Assembly: GCF_026410305.1 (NCBI RefSeq)
Contig: NZ_JAPMLQ010000007.1
Location: 62,001 to 126,000 of the forward strand
Direction: 5' to 3'
Origin: Sulfitobacter sp. F26204
Lineage (GTDB): Bacteria > Pseudomonadota > Alphaproteobacteria > Rhodobacterales > Rhodobacteraceae
Length of the DNA: 64,000 bases
Below the pieces are notes generated by a model. It had not been told where the DNA came from. It did no database searches and saw only the letters and a program-made list of their open reading frames with translations. This document shows, one piece after another, positions 10,841 to 61,876 of the stretch. Position 1 is the stretch's first letter; each line of letters starts with the position of its first letter. The position numbers and the translations under genes were made by a program.

Positions 10841-12241
10841 TTGAAAAAAACGCTAATCAAATGTGGGTGGCTCGTCACTCAGGATCCTGCTGTCGGTAAC
10901 TTGGTCGGGGGGGAATTGCTGATCCAGGGTGATCGGGTTCTGGCTGCTGGCAAATCTCTGGATGCGGCTCATGATGAGGTGATTGATGCATCCGAAATGA
11001 TTGTTATGCCGGGTCTGATCAATGGTCACATCCACGTTTGGCAATGCGGCCTGCGCGGGATTGGGTCTGAATGGATGGGGCCGGATTACCATGCCAACAT
11101 CCATGCGAATATCGCAACGCGCTATGGTCCGCAGGACAATTATCTGGGCAACCTGATCGGATCCTTGGCGCAGATCGACAGTGGTGTCACCACGGTTGTC
11201 GATTTCTGTCACAACCTGAAATCACTGGAAATGGCGGAATCGGCCATTGATGGTCTGGAGGAATCTGGCATCAGAGCGGTGTTTGCCCATGGTACGGCCA
11301 AGCCGCCCGCGGCACCGGGGGAAGTTCCCTTTACCCATGTCCCGCATCCGCGTGATCGGATCGAGGCATTGCGCAATGGCCGCATGGCTTCGGATGATCA
11401 GCGGGTCACCTTGGCGATGGCGGTGCTTGGACCTCATTACGGCACCCAAGAGGTTGCAGAGGCGGATATCCGTCTTGGCCGTGAATTTGGCCTTTTCACA
11501 ACTTCACATGCGACGAAACCCAACGACAAATGCATCACGCCGCGGGGCTATCTGGCTCTGGCCAAGGCCGGGTTGCTTGGCCCAGATCACAACATCGTTC
11601 ACGGCAACTACATCGATGACGAAGAACTGAAGGCGATCGTCGATTGCGGCGCGACAATTACTGCTACGGTGCTGGTCGAATTGCATGGCCATGCGCCAGA
11701 GCCCATGGTGATGCGTGTGCGCGAACTGGGGGGCATGCCTTCCATCGGTGTGGATGTTGAACCCATTGTCACCGGCGAAATGTTTCGGGAGATGCATGCC
11801 GCGCTGATGAGTGCACGATGGATCGCCCATTGTAATAATGCCAAAGAAGGCAAGCCCGCGCTGACCGAAATGCCGGTCCTCACACGTGAGGCTCTTGAAT
11901 GGGCTACAATCGGCAACGCCAAAGCGATGGGAATCGACGATCGTGTCGGCACGCTTGCGCCGGGCATGAAGGCAGACATCACCATGCTGCGCGCCAACGA
12001 CCTGAACATCTTCCCGGTGCATGATCCGGTCTACACCATCGTGGAACAGGCCAGCGCCAAGAACGTGGATACGGTTATCGTTGACGGGGTTGTCCGCAAG
12101 CGGCATGGCAAGTTGGTCTTTGATGACCAACTTCTCGCCCAGCGAATGAAAGAGATGCATGCATCTGCGCAACGCGCAATGGAAGAAGCCAACTTTACGC
12201 CCGGTGCGGCCTTGGCCCAAGAGGGAGAGCAACGCTCATGA
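10841..12241 (+). CDS. Amidohydrolase-superfamily enzyme (AtzB/TrzN/MtaD-like), copy 1
   Basis: A 466-residue metal-dependent hydrolase of the group that includes s-triazine hydrolases and methylthioadenosine/guanine deaminases. Likely metal ligands are His63 and His65 (NGHIH), His223 (TSHAT), His254 (VHGNY) and Asp305 (GVDVE). Many relatives have a Glu three residues after the third His (HxxE); here Lys226 takes that position, so the chemistry may differ from a normal deaminase. The TTG start at 10841 has GGAG 8 bases upstream, and its MKKT beginning matches the next gene. It overlaps that paralogue by 4 bp and opens a catabolic block. The substrate, probably an amino- or chloro-substituted ring or an amide, is unknown. 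Confidence 0.88.
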   Translation: MKKTLIKCGWLVTQDPAVGNLVGGELLIQGDRVLAAGKSLDAAHDEVIDASEMIVMPGLINGHIHVWQCGLRGIGSEWMGPDYHANIHANIATRYGPQDNYLGNLIGSLAQIDSGVTTVVDFCHNLKSLEMAESAIDGLEESGIRAVFAHGTAKPPAAPGEVPFTHVPHPRDRIEALRNGRMASDDQRVTLAMAVLGPHYGTQEVAEADIRLGREFGLFTTSHATKPNDKCITPRGYLALAKAGLLGPDHNIVHGNYIDDEELKAIVDCGATITATVLVELHGHAPEPMVMRVRELGGMPSIGVDVEPIVTGEMFREMHAALMSARWIAHCNNAKEGKPALTEMPVLTREALEWATIGNAKAMGIDDRVGTLAPGMKADITMLRANDLNIFPVHDPVYTIVEQASAKNVDTVIVDGVVRKRHGKLVFDDQLLAQRMKEMHASAQRAMEEANFTPGAALAQEGEQRS

Positions 12242-13605
12242 AAAAGACAATAATCCGCTGTGGCTGGGTCGTTTCACTGGATGATACCATTGGGGATGTA
12301 ACAGGTGCCGACATTCTGATTGGTGATGACAAGATTCTGGCCATTGGCACTGATCTTGGCGAGGCTGACGAGGTGATCGACGCCAGCGAGATGATCGCCA
12401 TTCCCGGCATGGTCGATGCCCATCTGCACACCTGGGAAACCGGGCTGAAGGCGATCGGTTGCGATTGGCGCAAAGGGGAATATCTGCGCGACGTCTTTGC
12501 CGGTATGAGCGTTTATTTCACCCCCGAGGACAACTACATCGCAACGCTTGCCGGGTCGTTAAGCAGGCTCGACGCCGGCGTCACGACATTGCTGGACTAT
12601 TGCCACAACATCCGTTCGACGGATCAGGCAGAGCGTTCGGTCGATGGTCTTGAGGATTCCGGCATTCGCAGTGTCTATGTGTTGGGAACTGGTGTGCTGC
12701 GCCCAGAAGAGGAAAAAGACACGCCGTTAGATCAGCGCACCCATCCGCGTGAGCGGGTCAAGCAAATCCGAGACCGGCTTTCGAGCGACGAGAAGTTGGT
12801 GACGATGGCTCTTGCAATTCCTGGCCCCCATTGGGCAAAGGAACCGGCGATCCGTGCAAACATTGCTTTGGCCCGTGATTTTGGCCTGCGCACCACCTCT
12901 CATGCGACCAAACGCAAGCATGAAGAGCTGATGAAGGATGGCTATTCAATCCTGATCAAGGAAGGTATCCTTGGGCCGGATCATAATATTGTACACGGTA
13001 ACTATCTGTCCGATGAGGAACTACGCGAGATCGTGGAAGCGGGCATCACCGTCACTTCCTCTGTGCAAAGCGAGGTCCGTGGCTATGGGCGCCCGCCGGC
13101 TGTTAATCGCGTGATCAACTTCGGCGGTCTTCCGTCACTGGGTGTTGATGTTGAACCCAAAATACCGGGGGATATGTTCCGCGAGATGCAGCTTGCGCTC
13201 GCCTATGTATTGAACGAACGCGTCCGCGAAGACCTTGTGAAGCCGGAAACGCCAATCGAGAACAAGCCTGTTACCACGCGTGATGCGCTAAAATGGGCGA
13301 CGATCGGTGGCGCAGAAGCCCTGGGCCTCGGCCATCGTATCGGGACGCTGACCCCGGGAAAACAGGCCGATATTGTCTTGCTGCGGGCCAATGATCTCAA
13401 CCTGTTTCCAGTGCGTAATCCGCTGTTTTCAGCCGTTGAATTTGCCCACGCCGGAAACGTCGATACCGTTTTGGTGGCCGGTGAGGTGCGAAAGCGCGGC
13501 GGTGTCCTGGCTTATGGAGATGACAAGCTGCGTTCGGTGCGGACCCGTTTGGTGGAATCTTCTGATCGGATCATGCGCGATGCCGGCTATACGGTTGCCA
13601 GCTGA
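12238..13605 (+). CDS. Amidohydrolase-superfamily enzyme, copy 2 (tandem paralogue)
   Basis: A 455-residue paralogue of the preceding gene, clearly related along its length (for example MKKTIIRCGW, VIDASEMIAIPG, GPDHNIVHGNY). Likely metal ligands are His62 and His64, His222, His253 and Asp304. As in copy 1, a Lys (225) stands where many deaminases have the Glu of HxxE. Its ATG is inside the stop of copy 1 (ATGA), so the two are co-translated. They may act on successive intermediates of one pathway or form a hetero-oligomer. The N-terminal and C-terminal parts form the small beta domain usual in this family, including the final GVLAYGD stretch. Confidence 0.88.
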   Translation: MKKTIIRCGWVVSLDDTIGDVTGADILIGDDKILAIGTDLGEADEVIDASEMIAIPGMVDAHLHTWETGLKAIGCDWRKGEYLRDVFAGMSVYFTPEDNYIATLAGSLSRLDAGVTTLLDYCHNIRSTDQAERSVDGLEDSGIRSVYVLGTGVLRPEEEKDTPLDQRTHPRERVKQIRDRLSSDEKLVTMALAIPGPHWAKEPAIRANIALARDFGLRTTSHATKRKHEELMKDGYSILIKEGILGPDHNIVHGNYLSDEELREIVEAGITVTSSVQSEVRGYGRPPAVNRVINFGGLPSLGVDVEPKIPGDMFREMQLALAYVLNERVREDLVKPETPIENKPVTTRDALKWATIGGAEALGLGHRIGTLTPGKQADIVLLRANDLNLFPVRNPLFSAVEFAHAGNVDTVLVAGEVRKRGGVLAYGDDKLRSVRTRLVESSDRIMRDAGYTVAS

Positions 13606-42309: not shown

Positions 42310-43830
42310 TTACAAATCCATCAACAACCGCCGTGGGTCTTCCAGCATCTCCTTGACCCGTACAAGGAACGTCACAGCGCCCTTACCGTCGATGATCCGG
42401 TGGTCATAGGACAAAGAGATATACATCATCGGACGGATCACGATTTCCCCGCCCACAACCATTGCACGGTCCTGAATCTTCGCCATGCCAAGGATGCCGG
42501 ACTGTGGCGGGTTCAGGATGGGCGCGGTCATCAGCGAACCATAGACGCCACCGTTGGAAATGGTGAAGGTGCCGCCGGTCATGTCCGCCATGGTCAGCTT
42601 GCCATCGCGGGCTTTCTTGCCCATTTCACCGATGCCTTTTTCGATTTCGGCGAATGACATCGTATCGACGTCACGAATTACCGGCACCACAAGGCCCGTG
42701 GGCGTGCCCGCAGCGACGCCCATGTGCACGTAGTTCTTATAAATCACATCGGTGCCGTCGATCTCGGCGTTGACCTCGGGGATTTCCTTGAGCGCATGGC
42801 AGCAGGCCTTGGTAAAGAAGGACATAAAGCCCATGCGCACACCGTGTTTCTTTTCAAAGTCGGCCTTATAGGTATTCCGGATCGCCATCACCTCGGTCAT
42901 GTCAACCTCGTTGAAGGTTGTCAGGATGGCGGCAGTGTTCTGCGCCTCTTTCAAACGACGCGCCATTGTTTGCTTGAGGCGTGTCATTTTCACGCGCTCC
43001 TCGCGCGAGGCATCTTCCGCAGCAGAAGGTGGGCGCGGCGCGGCTGGCTTGGCGGGCGCGGCAGAGGTGGTGCCACCGGCGGCGATTGCCTTGGCAACGT
43101 CCTCTTTCATCACACGGCCATCGCGGCCTGTGCCGGTAACCGCGTCACGGCTGATGCCACCTTCGGCCATTGCTTTTTTCGCTGAGGGCGCGTCTTCGAC
43201 GTCTTTGCCGCCCGCATCACCACTTGCGACAGGTGCGGCTTCGCTTTCTTTGGCCGTAGCGGCGGCCCCATCGCCGGAAGAGATCACCGCCAGTTTTGCA
43301 GAGGCCTCAACCGTGCTGCCTTCTTCGGCAAGAATTTCGGCCAAGATGCCAGCAGCAGGGGCTGGCACTTCGACGCTCACCTTGTCGGTTTCCAGTTCAC
43401 AGAGCATCTCGTCCTGTGCAACGCTGTCACCAACTTTCTTGAACCAAGTGCTGACCGTCGCTTCGGTCACGCTTTCGCCGAGGGTCGGGACCATCACATC
43501 AACAGATGCGCCGCCCTCATCACGCGGTGCTTGACTGGTGGCTGCTTCGTCCTTGGCCGCTTCTTTTGCCTTTGGTGCGGCTTCTGATCCAGCGTCACCT
43601 TCAGAAATATTGGCCAACAAAGCATCAACGCCGACAGTTTCGCCTTCTGCGGCGACGATTTCTGACAGGGTGCCCGCGACAGGGCTGGGCACTTCCACAG
43701 TTACCTTGTCGGTTTCCAGCTCACACAACATTTCATCCACCGCGACGGTGTCACCTGGTTTCTTGAACCATGTCGCAACGGTGGCTTCTGTCACGGATTC
43801 GCCCAGCGTGGGTACGCGTACTTCGGTCAT
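42310..43830 (-). CDS. sucB: 2-oxoglutarate dehydrogenase E2 (dihydrolipoamide succinyltransferase)
   Basis: A 506-residue E2 with two lipoyl domains (about 1-80 and 104-180; lipoyl Lys in ETDKVTVEV and ETDKVSVEV), separated by an Ala/Pro/Glu-rich linker. A peripheral subunit-binding segment (about 215-250: [24 protein letters not shown]) and the catalytic domain follow, with the active-site region [11 protein letters not shown]. Most succinyl-transferring E2s have one lipoyl domain; two are known in Rhodobacterales. The ATG overlaps the end of sucA by 4 bp. Confidence 0.95.
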
Positions 43831-46793
43831 TTCTTTGATCCTTCAAGTGTCAGCGCCTCGTCGATGAGGGCGGCTTGCTGTGATTTGTGCATGCTGGCCA
43901 AACCCGTGGCAGGCGAGGCAGCAGCGGCGCGACCGACGTAGGTCGGCCGTGATTGTTTGGCTTTGATACGGGTCAGAACCCATTCGATATTGGGCTCAAT
44001 GAATGACCATGCGCCCTGGTTCTTGGGCTCTTCCTGGCACCAGACCATATCGGCATTCTTGAACCGTTCCAATTCCTTGACCGCGGATTGAGCGGGGAAA
44101 GGATAAAACTGTTCAAAGCGCAGCAGGTAAATGTTGTCGATACCGCGTGCATCGCGTTCCTCAAGCAGGTCGTAGTAAACCTTGCCCGAACACATCACGA
44201 CGCGCTTGATCTTGTCATCTGGGACCAGGGACGTATCGGAATTGCCGTGCTGGGCATCGTCCCACAGGACACGGTGGAAAGAAGAACCTGTGGTGAATTC
44301 TTCGACCGTGCTGACAGCCATCTTATGACGCAGCAGCGACTTTGGCGTCATCAACATCAGTGGTTTACGGTAGCTGCGGTGCAACTGACGGCGCAGAATA
44401 TGGAAATAGTTTGCAGGCGTCGTGCAATTGGCAACAATCCAGTTGTCGCCGCCACACATTGTCAGGAACCGTTCCAGACGGGCAGAGGAATGTTCCGGCC
44501 CTTGTCCTTCATAGCCGTGTGGCATCAGGCAAACGAGCCCGGACATGCGCAACCATTTGGATTCACCGGAACTGATGAACTGGTCGAACATAATCTGTGC
44601 GCCGTTTGCGAAATCACCGAATTGTGCTTCCCAAAGGGTCAAAGCGTTGGGCTCGGCCAGAGAATAGCCATATTCAAAACCCAGCACCGCATATTCCGAC
44701 AGCATTGAATCGATGACTTCGTATTCAGCCTGGCCTTCGCGTATGTGGTTAAGCGGGTAATAGCGATCTTCATTTTCCTGATTGATCAGGGCAGAGTGTC
44801 GCTGGCTAAACGTCCCGCGCGACGAGTCTTGTCCAGCGAGCCGGACCTTGTAACCTTCGGTCAGCAAAGAGCCGAAAGCCAGTGCTTCGGCGGTTGCCCA
44901 GTCAAAGCCCTTGCCAGCCTTGAACATTTCGGCTTTTGCATCCAACAAACGCCCGACAGTCTTATGCAGAGGAAAGCCATCAGGTGCTTTGCACAGGGAC
45001 TTGCCGATTTCCGCAATGGTCTCGGGCTTTACGGCTGTTTTCCCGCGCTGGTATTTTGTACCGAGTTTATACAGATGCGACCATTTTCCGTCCAGCCAGT
45101 CAGCCTTGTTCGGGCGGAATTCCTTGCCGGCTTCGAATTCGTCATTCATCCGTTTTTGGAAATCGGCCTTCATGTCTTCGATTTCGCCCTCGGGCACCAA
45201 GCCATCTTTGACCAGCCGTTCAGCATAAAGGCTGAGCGTGGTCTTGTGGCCTTTGATCTTTTTATACATCACCGGGTTGGTAAACATCGGCTCGTCGCCT
45301 TCGTTATGACCAAAGCGGCGGTAACAAATGATGTCGAGCACGACATCCTTGTGGAACTTCTGGCGGAACTCTGTGGCGACGCGGGCAGCGTGAACGACGG
45401 CCTCTGGATCATCGCCGTTCACATGGAAAATCGGGGCTTCCACCACCAACGCATTGTCTGTCGGATATGGCGAAGAGCGTGAAAAATGGGGAGCGGTGGT
45501 AAAACCGATCTGATTGTTGACCACGATGTGCATCGTGCCCCCGGTCTTGTGACCCTTGAGCCCGGATAAAGCGAAACACTCGGCGACAACACCTTGGCCC
45601 GCAAAAGCAGCGTCACCGTGCAAAAGCACAGGCATGACGGAGATACGCTCGGTATCTTTCCTTTGGTCCTGTTTGGCGCGGACCTTGCCGATCACGACAG
45701 GGTTCACTGCCTCAAGATGCGAGGGGTTCGCAGTCAGCGACAGGTGCACCGTGTTATCATCAAACTCGCGGTCAGAAGAAGCCCCAAGGTGATATTTCAC
45801 ATCACCAGAGCCATCGACGTCTTCGGGTTTGAAACTGCCACCCTGAAATTCGTTAAAGATGGCACGATAGGGTTTCTGCATGACATTTGCCAGTACAGAC
45901 AAGCGCCCGCGGTGCGGCATGCCGATGACAATCTCTTTGACACCCAACTGGCCGCCGCGTTTGATAATCTGTTCCATCGCGGGGACAAGGCTTTCACCGC
46001 CGTCCAGGCCGAACCGTTTGGTTCCCATGTATTTGACATGCAGGAATTTCTCAAAGCCTTCGGCCTCCACAAGCGAACCAAGTATCGCTTTGCGCCCGTT
46101 CTTGGTAAAGGCGATCTCCTTGCCGTAACCTTCGATGCGTTCTTTCAACCAACCTGCTTCTTCGGGGTTTGAAATATGCATGTATTGCAGCGCAAAGGTG
46201 CCGCAATAGGTGGATTTCACGATGTCCACGATCTGTTTCAGCGTGGCGACTTCCAGACCCAGCACATTGTCGATGAAAATCGGACGGTTCATGTCGTCAT
46301 CGGTAAAACCATATGCCTTGGGATCGAGTTCAGGGTGGTCGCCCATGTCGCGCATGCCCAGCGGGTCAAGATCCGCCGCGAGGTGGCCGCGAATGCGATA
46401 GGCCCGGATCAGCATCAAGGCACGAATCGAATCCAGCACCGCGGTCCTGATCTGTTCGTCGCTGACGGCGACACCCTGTTCCGTTGCCTTCGCTTTTATC
46501 TTGTCCCCGGCGGCCTGTGCTTCGACAGGGTCCGGCCAGATGCCTGTTAATGCGCCAATGACTTCGCCCTGCGGGGAAGGAGGCCAATCGCGCCGTGCCC
46601 AGGATGGGCCGGCGGCCTCAGCTTCGACCGTCTTGCGTTCGTCACCCATGGCCTTGAAAAGCACATGCCATGCCTCGTCTACGGAAGACGGATCAGAAGC
46701 AAAGCGTGCATAAAGCTTTTCAAGATATTCCCCATTTTCGCCTTCCATAAAGGAAGACGCGTGGAAATTTGCGTTAGCAGGTTGTTCGGTCAT
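43827..46793 (-). CDS. sucA: 2-oxoglutarate dehydrogenase E1
   Basis: A 988-residue ThDP-dependent E1 that decarboxylates 2-oxoglutarate and passes the succinyl group to SucB. The N-terminus [17 protein letters not shown]-like and [14 protein letters not shown] are characteristic. The ThDP site is [13 protein letters not shown] (about residues 410-422) with [10 protein letters not shown], and the C-terminal domain has the [18 protein letters not shown] stretch. Full length for the family. It lies 47 bp after the DUF805 gene and is coupled to sucB. Confidence 0.97.
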
Positions 46794-47363: not shown

Positions 47364-48251
47364 TTAACCCTTTTCGATGGCTTCTTTCACCGCTTCTCCC
47401 AGGGTCGCTGGGCTGTCCGCCACAACGATACCGGCGGATTTCATCGCTTCGATCTTGTCCTCGGCACCGCCTTTGCCGCCGGCAACGATCGCGCCGGCGT
47501 GGCCCATGCGGCGGCCGGGAGGGGCGGTGCGGCCTGCAATGAAACCAGCGGTGGGCTTCCAGCGGCCTTTCTTTTTCTCGTCGGCGAGGAATTGTGCGGC
47601 TTCTTCTTCCGCAGAACCGCCAATCTCGCCAATCATGATGATTGACTGTGTTTCGTCATCCGCCAGGAACATTTCAAGGACATCGATATGTTCTGTGCCC
47701 TTGATCGGATCACCACCAATGCCCACGGCAGAGGATTGGCCATAGCCCAGATCGGAGGTCTGCTTGACCGCTTCATAGGTCAGGGTGCCCGAGCGAGAGA
47801 CAACGCCGCAAGAGCCGCGCTGGTGAATGTGGCCTGGCATGATGCCGATTTTGCAGGCATCCGGCGTGATCACTCCGGGACAGTTCGGGCCGATCAAACG
47901 AGATTTGGACCCTTCCAACGCACGTTGCACGCGCATCATGTCCAGCACCGGGATGCCCTCGGTGATGCAGACGATCAGTGGCATTCCTGCGTCGATGGCT
48001 TCAAGGATGGAATCCGCAGCAAATGGCGGGGGTACATAGATGACCGAAGCATTCGCCTCAGTGACATGCATCGCCTCGTGGACCGAATTGAAAACCGGCA
48101 GATCAAGATGGGACTGCCCCCCTTTGCCCGGGGTAACACCACCGACCATTTTGGTGCCGTAGGCAATGGCCTGCTCAGTGTGGAATGTCCCCTGCGAGCC
48201 GGTAAGGCCCTGACAGATGACTTTGGTATTTTCGTCTACGAGTACTGCCAT
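47364..48251 (-). CDS. sucD: Succinyl-CoA synthetase alpha subunit
   Basis: A 295-residue alpha subunit. The CoA-binding Rossmann region starts [19 protein letters not shown], and the active-site His is in the second half ([20 protein letters not shown]; phosphohistidine region GHAGA). With SucC it makes GTP or ATP from succinyl-CoA in the TCA cycle. In this genome sucC and sucD are separated by two small exported-protein genes. Confidence 0.97.
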
Positions 48252-49148: not shown

Positions 49149-50342
49149 CTAGCCTTTAACCGCTTTCACGATTTTCTGTGCGCCGTCTTTCAGGTCTTCC
49201 GCCGCAATCACGTCAAGACCGGAGTTGTTGATGATGTCTTTGCCCTGCTGCACGTTCGTACCTTCGAGACGCACAACCAGCGGCACTTTCAGACCGACTT
49301 CCTTGACCGCGGCGACAACGCCTTCGGCGATCACATCGCAGCGCATGATGCCGCCAAAGATGTTCACAAGGATGCCTTTGACCTTTGGATCGGAGGTGAT
49401 GATTTTGAAGGCTTCGGTCACTTTCTCTTTGGTGGCGCCGCCACCGACATCAAGGAAGTTGGCGGGTTCGGAACCATAAAGCTTGATAATATCCATGGTG
49501 GCCATGGCCAGTCCCGCACCGTTGACCATACAGCCGATTTCACCATCAAGCGTGATGTAGTTCAGGTCATACTTCGAAGCCTCAAGTTCCTTGGCATCTT
49601 CTTCGGTCTCGTCGCGCAATTCGTTGATGTCTGGATGGCGATAGATTGCGTTGCCGTCAAAACTGACCTTGGCGTCAAGCACTTTCAGATCTCCGGTATC
49701 CGTGACCACCAGGGGGTTGATTTCAAGCATCTCCATGTCTTTTTCAAGAAATGCCTTGTAGAGCAAACCCATCAGGCCGACGCATTGTTTGACCTGTTTG
49801 CCTTCCAGGCCAAGCGAAAATGCGATGCGGCGACCGTGAAAGGCTTGATACCCAGTAGCCGGATCAACCGAGAAGCTGAGGATTTTCTCGGGAGTGCTGG
49901 CTGCGACTTCTTCGATGTCCATGCCGCCTTCGGTCGAACAAACAAACGACACACGAGATGTCTGACGATCCACCAGCAACGCGAGGTAGAGTTCGGTTTC
50001 GATGCCGGAACCGTCTTCGATGTAGATCCGATTGACCTGTTTGCCTGCGGGGCCGGTCTGATGCGTGACCAGGGTGCGGCCCAGCATCTTCTTGGCTTGT
50101 TCTGCCGCGTCTTCCACTGATTTGGCCAGCCGAACGCCGCCCGCATCACCGGCATCGGCCTCTTTGAATGTGCCCTTGCCGCGGCCACCAGCGTGGATCT
50201 GCGCTTTCACAACCCAAAGCGGGCCGTCCATTTCGCCGGCTGCTGTCTTGGCATCTTCGGCCTTGAGGACAACGCGGCCATCTGAGACAGGTGCGCCATA
50301 GCTACGCAGAAGGGCTTTCGCCTGGTATTCGTGGATGTTCAT
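49149..50342 (-). CDS. sucC: Succinyl-CoA synthetase beta subunit
   Basis: A 397-residue ATP-grasp beta subunit. [16 protein letters not shown] starts the protein; [17 protein letters not shown] is the nucleotide-binding lid, LEINPLVVT carries metal ligands, and [17 protein letters not shown] and [17 protein letters not shown] follow. It is the first gene of the sucC-sucD-sucA-sucB-lpd block on the minus strand. A 277-bp upstream gap with two matching palindromes gives it its own promoter and operator region. Confidence 0.97.
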
Positions 50343-50451
50343 GAAAAGCGGTCCCGTATTTGTTCAAGTCACCAATTGGCAGCTGGTGAGTCTTATGGTT
50401 CAAAGCAAGCTTTGAGCAGTTTTGAATACATTGCCAGCAGAAAGCGACATT

Positions 50452-50482
50452 TGTGATCACAGTTGAAAAACGTGTGATCACA
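50452..50482 (-). promoter_or_regulatory. Paired TGTGATCACA palindromes upstream of sucC
   Basis: Two exact TGTGATCACA palindromes lie at 50452-50461 and 50473-50482, with centres 21 bp apart (two helical turns). They are 110-140 bp before the sucC start and downstream of the mch stop. The same double element, with the same 21-bp spacing, lies in front of sdhC (56767-56797). The symmetric core and spacing indicate cooperative binding of two dimers. The regulator is unknown; the 10-bp core lacks the six-base gap of a CRP/FNR site. Confidence 0.75.
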
Positions 50483-56095: not shown

Positions 56096-56764
56096 ATGCG
56101 CCTGCTCCTGTTCCTCTGCTGTGCCGTTTTCCCTTCCTGCGCAACTGCTTGCGGATTGGCACTCGTTTTGGCCGTGGATGTGTCTGGGTCGGTTGATCAA
56201 ACTGAATATCGCATGCAAATGGACGGGTTGGCTGCCGCATTGCTGGATGGGATTGTCGTTGATGCCCTGATTGATCAGGAGGCACATGTCAGCTTGGTCC
56301 AATGGTCCGGTTCGTCGCGTCAGGCCCAAACAATTCCCTGGACGCCGATCACCTCGTTTGATGACGTCAGAGCGCTGGCAGATGCAATTGTCTCCGATCC
56401 CCGCAAATGGCGCAATTATTCTACTGCGATCGGCGAAGCACTTGACCTGTCTGCCGAAAGTTTTACCCAGGTCGTCTGGTGTAAACGCCACGTTATCGAT
56501 GTTTCTGGTGACGGAGTTTCGAACGAGGGCCAGTTGCCACGCGAAATGCGACAATCCATGCGACTGTCGGGTATCACTGTGAACGCTCTGGCGATCGAGA
56601 CCGATGATACGGATTTGACAGCCTACTTTTACGAGAATTTGATCGTAGGAGAGGGGGCATTTGTGATCACCGCCAATGGGTTTGCCGATTATCCCGAAAA
56701 AATACGTCGTAAATTGCAGCGCGAAACAACAAAGCGGCTGAGTCGTCTCGACAATTCCCAATAG
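56096..56764 (+). CDS. DUF1194-family exported protein with VWA fold
   Basis: A 222-residue predicted exported protein. A signal peptide (about 1-20, with Cys near the end) precedes a von Willebrand A-like domain with the MIDAS metal motif in LAVDVSGSVD (DxSxS) and a second Asp at VSGDGVSN. The DUF1194 family's partner is unknown; VWA domains bind ligands through a divalent metal. It lies between mdh and the sdh operon, and a TTTGTGATCACC element in its coding region is discussed in the findings. Confidence 0.9.
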   Translation: MRLLLFLCCAVFPSCATACGLALVLAVDVSGSVDQTEYRMQMDGLAAALLDGIVVDALIDQEAHVSLVQWSGSSRQAQTIPWTPITSFDDVRALADAIVSDPRKWRNYSTAIGEALDLSAESFTQVVWCKRHVIDVSGDGVSNEGQLPREMRQSMRLSGITVNALAIETDDTDLTAYFYENLIVGEGAFVITANGFADYPEKIRRKLQRETTKRLSRLDNSQ

Positions 56765-56766
56765 TC

Positions 56767-56797
56767 TGTGATCACAGTTAAATACCACGTGATCACA
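56767..56797 (+). promoter_or_regulatory. Paired TGTGATCACA-type palindromes upstream of sdhC
   Basis: TGTGATCACA lies at 56767-56776 and CGTGATCACA at 56788-56797, centres 21 bp apart, just after the DUF1194 stop and 158 bp before sdhC. The composite element, including the AACTGTGATCACA flank, matches the one before sucC but in the opposite orientation. Its position about 50-70 bases before a candidate transcription start suggests activation of sdhCDAB. Confidence 0.75.
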
Positions 56798-56834: not shown

Positions 56835-56954
56835 GTTATTTGTCTGTCGGGGCGTGCGTCAATTTCGCGAACCCCCGTGACACCACTTCAAAAAGCGTTA
56901 TGAGTCGAAGGTAGCCAAGTCGACAATACGCAGCCACCGTAAAGGACCCGTGCC

Positions 56955-57338
56955 ATGGCCGATGTAAACCGGGGCAATCGTCCCCTGTCCCCCCATTTGA
57001 CGATTTACCGTCCGCAATTGACCTCGATGACCTCGATCCTGACTCGGATCACGGGGAATGCCATGTTGGTCGCGGCATTGATGATTGTCTGGTGGTTTCT
57101 GGCCGCGGCCAGTTCGCCCGACTATTTTGCAATTGCCAATGGTTTTGTAACCAGCTGGTTTGGCGACCTGATCATGTTCTTTTCTGTTCTGGGGTTATGG
57201 TATCACACCTTGGCAGGGGTTCGGCATTTGATCTGGGATGCGGGTCACGGGATGGACATCCCGACGGCCGAGAAGCTGGGTTGGGCCTGTATTGGTGGAT
57301 CGGTCTTGTTGACGATCTTTACCGTACTGGCCGTATAA
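56955..57338 (+). CDS. sdhC: Succinate dehydrogenase cytochrome b556 subunit
   Basis: A 127-residue three-span membrane subunit that anchors the complex and binds haem and quinone. RPLSPHLTIYRPQLTSMTSILTRITG is the family start motif, and the haem-ligand His is in WYHTLAGVRHLIWD. AAAGGA lies upstream of the ATG at 56955. It opens the sdh operon, 12 bp before sdhD. Confidence 0.95.
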   Translation: MADVNRGNRPLSPHLTIYRPQLTSMTSILTRITGNAMLVAALMIVWWFLAAASSPDYFAIANGFVTSWFGDLIMFFSVLGLWYHTLAGVRHLIWDAGHGMDIPTAEKLGWACIGGSVLLTIFTVLAV

Positions 57339-57349
57339 GGGGGATAGAA

Positions 57350-57721
57350 ATGGCATATCTTACAGATCGCAAACGCGCGATGGGGCTTGGCTCTGCAAAG
57401 ACAGGTACGGCGCATTACTGGTCGATGAAGGTCAGCTCGGTTGCCTTGCTGATCCTGATCCCGTTGTTTGTATTCACCTTCGGTTCCGCTCTTGGCGGCA
57501 CCTACGAGGAAATCCTGGCCTATTACAGTCGTCCGGGCCCTGCGATCATCGCAGCTTTGACGATTGCCGTAGGGTTCAAGCATTTCAATGATGGCGTTCA
57601 GACCCTGATCGAAGATTATGTACACGGCATAAGTCAGAAGGTGGCAATTATTCTGATGACCTGCCTGAGCTATGGTGCTGCAGCCGTTGGCGTTTTTGCC
57701 ATCGTGAAACTGGCGCTTTGA
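57350..57721 (+). CDS. sdhD: Succinate dehydrogenase hydrophobic membrane anchor subunit
   Basis: A 123-residue three-span partner of SdhC. The pattern [31 protein letters not shown] is typical of the alphaproteobacterial type, and the haem- or quinone-region His is in [17 protein letters not shown]. The ATG at 57350 has AGGGGGA upstream; a longer upstream frame runs over sdhC and is rejected. Confidence 0.93.
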
Positions 57722-57749: not shown

Positions 57750-59555
57750 ATGGCCGCATATGAGTATGAAACCCACGAGTATGACGTGGTGGTTGTGGGC
57801 GCTGGTGGTGCGGGTTTGCGTGCAACCCTTGGCATGGCAGAGCAGGGATTGCGTACTGCCTGTATCTCCAAGGTATTTCCAACGCGATCGCATACTGTTG
57901 CTGCACAAGGCGGAATCGCCGCCTCGCTTTCTAACATGGGCCCTGACAACTGGCAGTGGCATATGTACGACACGGTCAAAGGCTCGGACTGGCTCGGTGA
58001 TACGGATGCGATGGAGTATCTGGCACGCGAGGCGCCAAAGGCCGTTTATGAGCTTGAGCACTATGGCGTGCCATTCTCGCGTACAGAGGAAGGCAAGATT
58101 TATCAGCGTCCCTTTGGCGGCCACACCACTGAATTTGGCGAAGGCCCTCCCGTTCAGCGCACCTGTGCCGCTGCGGACCGTACCGGCCACGCTATTCTCC
58201 ACACGCTTTATGGCCAATCTCTCAAACAGAAGGCCAATTTCTATATCGAATATTTCGCCATTGACCTGATCATGTCGGACGATGGGGTGTGTCAGGGCGT
58301 GCTGTGCTGGAAGCTGGACGACGGCACGATGCATCTGTTCGCTGCCAAGATGGTGGTGCTGGCGACCGGCGGCTATGGTCGCGCCTATTTCAGCGCAACA
58401 TCGGCGCATACCTGCACTGGTGACGGCGGTGGGATGACGGCACGTGCGGGTCTGCCTTTGCAGGATATGGAGTTCGTGCAGTTCCATCCTACCGGCATCT
58501 ACGGTGCCGGCTGTCTTATCACCGAAGGGGCGCGGGGCGAAGGCGGATACCTTACCAACTCCGAAGGCGAGCGGTTCATGGAACGCTATGCGCCGACCTA
58601 CAAGGATCTGGCGTCGCGCGACGTGGTTTCGCGCTGCATGACCATGGAAATCCGCGAGGGTCGCGGCGTAGGCGAGAACAAGGATCACATTCACCTGCAC
58701 CTCAACCATCTGCCGCCGGAAACGCTGGATCTGCGCCTGCCGGGCATTTCGGAATCCGCGCGCATCTTTGCAGGTGTGGATCTGACCAAAGAGCCGATCC
58801 CGGTGCTGCCTACGGTGCACTACAACATGGGTGGCATTCCAACAAACTATTGGGGCGAGGTGCTTGCGCCGACGAAGGATAATCCAGACAATGTGTCCCC
58901 AGGTCTGATGGCCGTGGGCGAGGCAGGCTGTGCATCTGTGCACGGCGCCAATCGACTGGGATCGAACAGCCTGATCGACCTCGTGGTCTTTGGTCGCGCC
59001 GCGGCCATCCGCGCCAAGGAAGTCGTGGATGCCGAAGCCGCAGTGCCGACGCCCAACAAACGGTCGGTCGAAGCGGCATTCAGCCGGTTTGACGGGTTGC
59101 GCTATGCCAAGGGGCATGTGCCCACGGCGGAGCTGCGCCTCGAGATGCAAAAGACGATGCAGGCGGATGCCGCCGTATTCCGCACCGACACGACCCTCGC
59201 CGAGGGCGAGGAGAAGATGAAGGGCGTGGCAGGCAAGCTTGTCGATCTACATGTGACGGACAAGTCGCTGGTCTGGAATTCGGATCTGATGGAAACATTG
59301 GAACTGACCAATCTGATGCCTAATGCGGTGGCCACGATCACTGCTGCGGCGGCCCGCAAGGAAAGCCGCGGTGCCCATGCGCATGAGGACTATCCTGACC
59401 GCGATGACGAGAACTGGCGCAAGCATTCCTTGATCTGGTTCGAGGGTAATGAGGCGACACTCGGTTTCCGGGGCGTGCATCTCAAGCCGCTTTCCAGCCA
59501 TAACGAAGGTGGTATCGATCTGAAAAAGATCGCACCAAAAGCGAGGGTTTATTAA
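57750..59555 (+). CDS. sdhA: Succinate dehydrogenase flavoprotein subunit
   Basis: A 601-residue flavoprotein. FAD site [15 protein letters not shown] at the N-terminus, covalent FAD His in [11 protein letters not shown] (about residue 49), active-site His and Arg in the capping domain ([34 protein letters not shown] and [21 protein letters not shown]), and [15 protein letters not shown] at the C-terminal end. It oxidises succinate to fumarate at the membrane face. It ends in the first base of the next gene's ATG. Confidence 0.97.
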
Positions 59556-61096: not shown

Positions 61097-61876
61097 ATGG
61101 TTCAGCTCACACTCCCAAAGAACTCGCGCATGACGAGCGGCAAGACATGGCCCAAGCCCGAGGGCGCAAGCAACCTCAAGGAATTTCACATCTATCGCTG
61201 GAACCCGGACGATGGCAAAAACCCCGCGATTGACACCTACTTTGTTGACATGGACAGCTGCGGGCCGATGATTTTGGACGCGCTGATCAAAATCAAGAAT
61301 GAAATCGATCCAACTCTGACCTTCCGTCGCTCCTGCCGCGAAGGCATTTGCGGATCCTGCGCCATGAATATCGATGGCATCAATACCCTGGCTTGCACCT
61401 ATGGTCTGGCCGAAGTTGCGGGGGTGGTCAAAATCTATCCATTGCCCCACATGCCGGTTGTCAAAGACCTGATCCCCGATCTGACACATTTTTACGCGCA
61501 GCACGCGAGCATTCAACCTTGGTTGGAAACCGAAACGCCGGCACCTGTGAAAGAATGGAAACAATCGATCGAAGATCGCTCGAAACTCGACGGCCTATAT
61601 GAATGTATCATGTGCGCCTGTTGTTCGACTTCCTGTCCCAGCTATTGGTGGAATGGCGACCGCTACCTTGGGCCAGCCGCGCTCTTGCACGCCTATCGTT
61701 GGATCATCGATTCACGGGATGAGGCGACGGGCGAACGCCTGGACGATCTGGAAGACCCATTCAAACTGTATCGTTGCCACACGATCATGAACTGTGCCAA
61801 GACCTGCCCAAAGGGGTTGAACCCAGCAGCGGCAATTTCCAAGATCAAGAAATTGATGGTGGAGCGCACCGTCTGA
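61097..61876 (+). CDS. sdhB: Succinate dehydrogenase iron-sulfur subunit
   Basis: A 259-residue protein with three iron-sulfur clusters. The plant-type 2Fe-2S site is [22 protein letters not shown], the 4Fe-4S site is [12 protein letters not shown], and the 3Fe-4S site is [12 protein letters not shown]. It carries electrons from SdhA to the quinone. It is separated from sdhA by about 1.5 kb holding three genes, an arrangement I recall from other Rhodobacterales. Confidence 0.97.

Follow-up and report, generated by a model that had tools for sequence, protein, structure and literature searches.

Palindrome pairs with 21-bp centres before sucC and sdhC in a Sulfitobacter genome: probable double operators of the GntR-family regulator AkgR

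The window analysed here, a stretch of 64,000 nucleotides from Sulfitobacter sp. F26204 (G000:C25:62001-126000, in a host genome of 4.24 Mb on 27 contigs), contains two operons of the TCA cycle, each preceded by a pair of short palindromes. On the minus strand, the open reading frame of sucC (49149..50342, ATG at 50342), which encodes succinyl-CoA synthetase beta and whose homologues also stand behind the pair in relatives, is followed by sucD (47364..48251, named by eye from the sequence) and by sucA (43827..46793, 2-oxoglutarate dehydrogenase E1), which lies downstream on the same strand and is not itself preceded by a pair; the relative L048 differs in having the pair directly before sucA. 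On the plus strand, the open reading frames of sdhC (56955..57338, ATG at 56955), sdhD (57350..57721, start picked at MAYLTDRKR), sdhA (57750..59555) and sdhB (61097..61876) make up sdhCDAB.

For sucC, the predicted -35 element TTTGAA (50399..50404, minus strand) is located 48 bp after the promoter-proximal core, where a T-rich box is kept in 49 suc promoters, and its putative -10 partner TGCCAA (50376-50381, minus strand) is weak. The predicted -35 element of sdhC, GTGACA (56877..56882, plus strand), is 80 bp beyond the proximal core, where 57-60 bp would be usual (a difference of about two turns), and is followed after 16 bp by the predicted -10 element TATGAG (56899..56904, plus strand). 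The centre of the proximal palindrome lies approximately 88 bp upstream of the predicted start at sucC and approximately 118 bp upstream at sdhC. Both promoters are predictions, that of suc being the weak one; for Rhodobacter sphaeroides, a set of mapped transcription starts is announced in PMC7471390.

The sucC pair is composed of two exact copies of the 10-bp palindrome TGTGATCACA, the promoter-distal one at 50473..50482 and the proximal one at 50452..50461, and the pair is kept upstream of sucC in relatives. Before sdhC, the distal site (56767..56776) is again an exact TGTGATCACA, while the proximal site (56788..56797) reads CGTGATCACA. A sequence-only reading of the window had placed two identical sites before sdhC, which is true of the 8-bp core GTGATCAC and fails for the 10-mer, because the fourth site is one outer base off. 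The same reading had set the centres of both pairs exactly 21 bp apart, and this distance was confirmed in the sequence, which supports its view of two sites separated by two helical turns. Both pairs also share a AACTGTGATCACA flank, which faces opposite ways with respect to the genes; it was given no weight and was dropped as a meaningful feature because the spacer is weakly conserved among relatives.

Allowing up to one mismatch, the window contains seven copies of the 10-mer where 2.25 would be expected, a count reached in none of 100 shuffles, and four of the six cores in the window fall within the sucC and sdhC gaps. Throughout the 4.24 Mb, the exact TGTGATCACA was found six times and its reversed control not once: three copies are in the suc and sdh gaps, one precedes a GntR-family gene, and the other two, on contigs C1 and C20, fall within reading frames judged by eye to be ABC-transporter-like and ketoacyl-synthase-like and are regarded as chance occurrences. 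None of these six places supports mdh, gltA or icd, which had been suggested as further targets. Pairs of GTGATCAC separated by 3 to 30 bases are confined to two places in the host genome, namely the sucC and sdhC gaps, and the looser pair TGATCA-N15-TGATCA matches nine places exactly and 72 at one mismatch. An extra core at window position 56663 is situated within the coding frame (FVIT) of a VWA-like gene before sdhC, and is probably explained by coding constraint; at the loci L288 and L292, one further GTGATCAC likewise lies 106-110 bp before the pair.

The half sites TGTGA...TCACA of CRP are similar to those of the palindrome, so that degenerate sites of the CRP/FNR type might be considered. 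CRP/FNR sites have separated half sites (TGTGA-N6-TCACA or TTGAT-N4-ATCAA), whereas those of the 10-bp palindrome overlap and leave no six-base spacer, which bears out the earlier statement that this is not a standard CRP/FNR site. A CceR site might be considered as well, given that PMC4344238 predicts RSP_1663 (CceR) to act at sdh of Rhodobacter sphaeroides; the RSP_1663 motif printed there, [A/G/T]GTT-N6-8-AAC[A/C/T], does not fit TGTGATCACA. With both motifs mismatched, CRP/FNR and CceR identities were rejected, and their probability is next to nil. Since the same source predicts NtrC in addition to RSP_1663 at sdh, the protein that binds the pair need not be the sole regulator of this operon.

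Comparison with relatives revealed that the pair is a family-wide feature. Of the 295 genomes sampled from the family, which was taken as Rhodobacteraceae on the strength of gene content and similarity, 267 contain the pattern GTGATCAC-N{3,30}-GTGATCAC, commonly at two places each, and one contains its reversed version; a fixed N13 pair at one mismatch was found in 261 of the 295. Among the places listed (at least 75, from 37 genomes), the spacing was N13, equivalent to 21-bp centres, in 65, N12 in five and another value in five, and the sampled genus mate G055 has N12 instead of N13 at both places. All eight named genomes tried (Cereibacter johrii, Rhodobacter calidifons, Pseudotabrizicola formosa, Mameliella alba, Roseovarius mucosus, Rhodovulum imhoffii, Puniceibacterium antarcticum and Maliponia aquimaris) gave at least two pair matches. 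A class-wide sample of 289 genomes gave 21 with the pair: all four of its family members have it, as do 17 of the 285 others, two of these 17 with N13; the reversed control matched two genomes, one of them 38 times.

From 105 fetched loci, 92 distinct assignable promoters were obtained (43 of sdhC, 48 of sucC and one of sucA), each promoter met twice being entered once. Nine unassignable loci were left out (L030, L043, L044, L208, L216, L222, L265, L295 and L296), L265 being a one-mismatch pair and L222, fumC-like, being treated apart. Core to core, the pair spans 29 bp in 82 of the 92 promoters and 28 bp in the other ten, and the 29-bp form, in which the centres are 21 bp apart, accounts for 38 of the 43 sdh promoters and 44 of the 49 suc promoters. 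The pair, whose absence from relatives was to count against the proposal, is accordingly conserved before both sucC and sdhC, and the suggestion of one regulon shared by these consecutive TCA steps is supported.

Several variants of this arrangement were encountered. In G042 (L222, G042:C16:228293-228321), a third 21-bp GTGATCAC pair precedes a class II fumarase gene (fumC-like, named by eye), so the regulon would span three consecutive TCA steps there. Rhodobacter calidifons and Pseudotabrizicola formosa (L218/L219 in G296 and G297, sites 11610-11652 and 12319-12361) have triple GTGATCAC arrays in 21-bp steps before sucC, and G265 and G135 carry ten and six GTGATCAC pairs per genome, respectively, instead of two. 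In another family, a 21-bp pair (L225, G448:C189:992-1020) stands shortly before a different GntR-type gene whose product is 29% identical to AkgR, the regulator introduced below, which suggests that AkgR relatives elsewhere may use the double operator.

The copy of TGTGATCACA at the GntR-family gene stops 7 bp short of its ATG. This gene, on another contig (G000:C11:637131; L053:10132-10782), is taken as the probable akgR orthologue. Its product of 216 aa matches the Pfam models GntR (1.7e-12) and FCD (2.9e-17), which agrees with the family to which AkgR belongs. None of the seven regulator matches in the host genome (E <= 1e-5) is on the contig of the window, in keeping with the earlier remark that no regulator is encoded beside the pairs. 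Across 52 distinct orthologue loci, a sample biased by being drawn mainly from the best-scoring matches, GTGATCAC is present within 110 bp upstream of the regulator gene at 43 and missing at nine, C. johrii included; L093, which has no regulator gene, and the repeats L094, L217 and L219 do not enter this count. At 36 of the 43 loci, a -35-like TTGA has its first base 18 bp ahead of that of the palindrome, which would therefore overlap the expected -10 element of the regulator gene. One genome (G187, about C1:3357949; L081/L094) has two GTGATCAC 13 bp apart at the regulator promoter instead of one.

The regulator gene and the pair also occur together. At E <= 1e-30, the gene was matched in 273 of the 295 family genomes; 263 have gene and pair, 18 neither, ten the gene only and four the pair only, with a Fisher p = 3e-18 that overstates the association because related genomes are not independent by shared descent. 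When weak matches (E > 1e-60) were treated as absent and the 261 genomes taken as at least 90% complete were used, the corresponding numbers became 237, 18, three and three. Four of the ten gene-only genomes have a one-mismatch N13 pair, and another five have only a weak gene match that is probably paralogous. The four pair-only genomes are 77% (two genomes), 93% and 100% complete, and an N13 pair with one mismatch is present in two of the 18 genomes without gene or exact pair (G004 and G102). Matches to the gene at E <= 1e-40 were obtained in all four family members of the class sample and, as a 36% relative, in one of the 285 others.

Many genomes encode a second GntR protein, approximately 36-40% identical to the first (e.g., at G000:C11:217809, 36%), and such a paralogue could conceivably be the true binder. 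Nevertheless, many pair-bearing genomes have a single match at 1e-30, five of the eight genomes with a weak match only are devoid of the exact pair, and the 130 bp upstream of the host genome's paralogue (L099) contain no exact GTGATCAC. The paralogue was rejected as binder on these grounds and is regarded as very improbable.

The protein encoded by RSP_0981 in R. sphaeroides is taken here to be AkgR, which was reportedly described by Imam et al. in 2015 as directly activating TCA genes. In PMC6365646, GTGATCAC, which the operators of the window contain, is printed as a motif among the AkgR binding sites of R. sphaeroides. According to the predictions in PMC4344238, sucCD, sdh and sucAB/2-oxoglutarate dehydrogenase are under the control of the GntR protein RSP_0981, and the pairs of the window stand before sucCD and sdh. 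Its locus tags comprise 2-oxoglutarate dehydrogenase RSP_0965-62 (sucA RSP_0965), sucCD RSP_0967-6, mdh RSP_0968 and sdh RSP_0974-6. C. johrii possesses a single close homologue of the regulator (77%, the next best being 31%) in the order GntR - sdhB - sdhA - sdhD - sdhC - [pair] - ... - mdh - [pair] - sucC - sucD - sucA, which agrees with the tag order of R. sphaeroides, RSP_0981 included, as far as these tags are given.

Because motif, predicted targets and gene order of C. johrii agree, the protein is very probably AkgR and the regulon a known one; the orthology to RSP_0981 itself is probable by gene order, the single close homologue in C. johrii and locus-tag numbers rather than by the RSP_0981 sequence. 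The pairs would then very probably be sites of an already described regulator, and the description of the regulon as unnamed does not hold for a motif that is in print and for targets already predicted. No related paper was found for TGTGATCACA, as judged by title and abstract start, nor a description of the 21-bp pair or its phasing in the literature searched, beyond which the original AkgR paper may contain one. Among the 33 regulators tabulated in the accessible part of Leyn et al. 2016 (PMC5343134), AkgR is not listed. The part that looks new is the strict spacing of the pair together with the whole-turn promoter distances.

These distances were measured from the proximal core to the -35 box. 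The sdh promoters have a box GTGAC[A/T] (in a few, TTGAC), then 15-17 (mostly 16) bases and a hexamer usually starting with TA. In 32 of 39 promoters with a recognisable box, the distance is 57-60 bp; the other seven have 48, 48, 69, 78, 79, 80 and 80 bp, the window providing one of the 80s, and, at 10.5 bp per turn, these values deviate from the mean (58.6 bp) by -1, +1 and +2 turns. Assuming independence, none of 20,000 random draws placed all seven outliers as close to whole turns, and the five distinct outlier distances gave P = 0.00035 against random placement. The count was made without four of the 43 sdh promoters that lack a recognisable box (L024, L040, L267 and L273) and with boxes that have poor -10 partners (L223, L234, L256 and L282, the last being one of the two 48s), and one of two competing boxes at L047, that at 58, was chosen by hand. 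At the suc promoters, the T-rich -35-like box is about 47-48 bp from the pair, one turn nearer than at sdh, with T at positions 48 and 49 in 85% and 79% of the 49 promoters. Three suc promoters (L025, L026 and L219) have GCGCTAA-containing palindromes between pair and -35, which presumably resemble CceR-type sites, and joint control is possible there.

Taken together, each pair is best read, with a probability of roughly 0.85, as a double operator through which AkgR would activate sucCD(-sucAB) and sdhCDAB, while the single site would repress akgR. Two AkgR dimers may bind side by side on each pair, two helical turns apart, well upstream of the predicted promoter and on a face of the helix that is kept in register with it. 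From there, AkgR would aid RNA polymerase at both operons, presumably by contacting it, in response to a signal that the scheme supposes. At its own gene, one dimer over the predicted -10 element would block transcription.

Alternatively, the same regulator might repress suc and sdh, or stand as a roadblock there, until a TCA intermediate releases it. FadR-type GntR proteins are better known for repression, most of them being repressors, and the palindrome at the regulator's own gene overlaps the predicted -10 element. At suc and sdh, in contrast, some 47-80 bp separate the pair from the predicted -35 downstream of it, with the two in register at sdh, which is an awkward place for a repressor, and AkgR is termed a transcriptional activator in PMC6365646. 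Repression of suc and sdh is considered unlikely. Activation by AkgR can be extended to a more general rule, which we would rate as about an even bet: AkgR would be a helix-phased double-dimer activator whose pair shifts relative to the sdh promoter by whole turns only (48, 58, 69 and 79 bp), the single -10 site would make it an autorepressor, and the number and position of sites alone would set the sign of regulation family-wide.

Naming the regulator corrects the reading of an unnamed regulon and provides a family-wide natural data set. Each genome usually contributes one regulator with two targets, and spacing and promoter distance could be used to test far-upstream activation by a FadR-type GntR protein. 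The best match by sequence among solved structures is McbR (YncC) of E. coli (PDB 4p9f, E 1.3e-21), which has weak identity to the regulator and different targets. CRP-type activators, the effect of which depends on helical phase, are comparable in acting upstream at whole-turn distances, while protein and site are unrelated. PS417_07240 of Pseudomonas simiae, in a deoxyribonate cluster, is a GntR-type protein 32% identical to AkgR with the palindrome GTGATCAC; unlike the system described here, it serves another pathway, where a single palindrome occupies positions -47 to -40 relative to the start codon, and no 21-bp pair is described in the accessible text (PMC6365646). Compared with C. johrii, whose regulator gene is without a palindrome, the host has its regulator on another contig and with its own palindrome. 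The closest likeness is to the AkgR (RSP_0981) regulon of R. sphaeroides, as far as its sources describe it, which shares the GntR family, the GTGATCAC motif and the sucCD and sdh targets (with sucAB a putative one here), and which is matched by the gene order in C. johrii, a close relative of R. sphaeroides.
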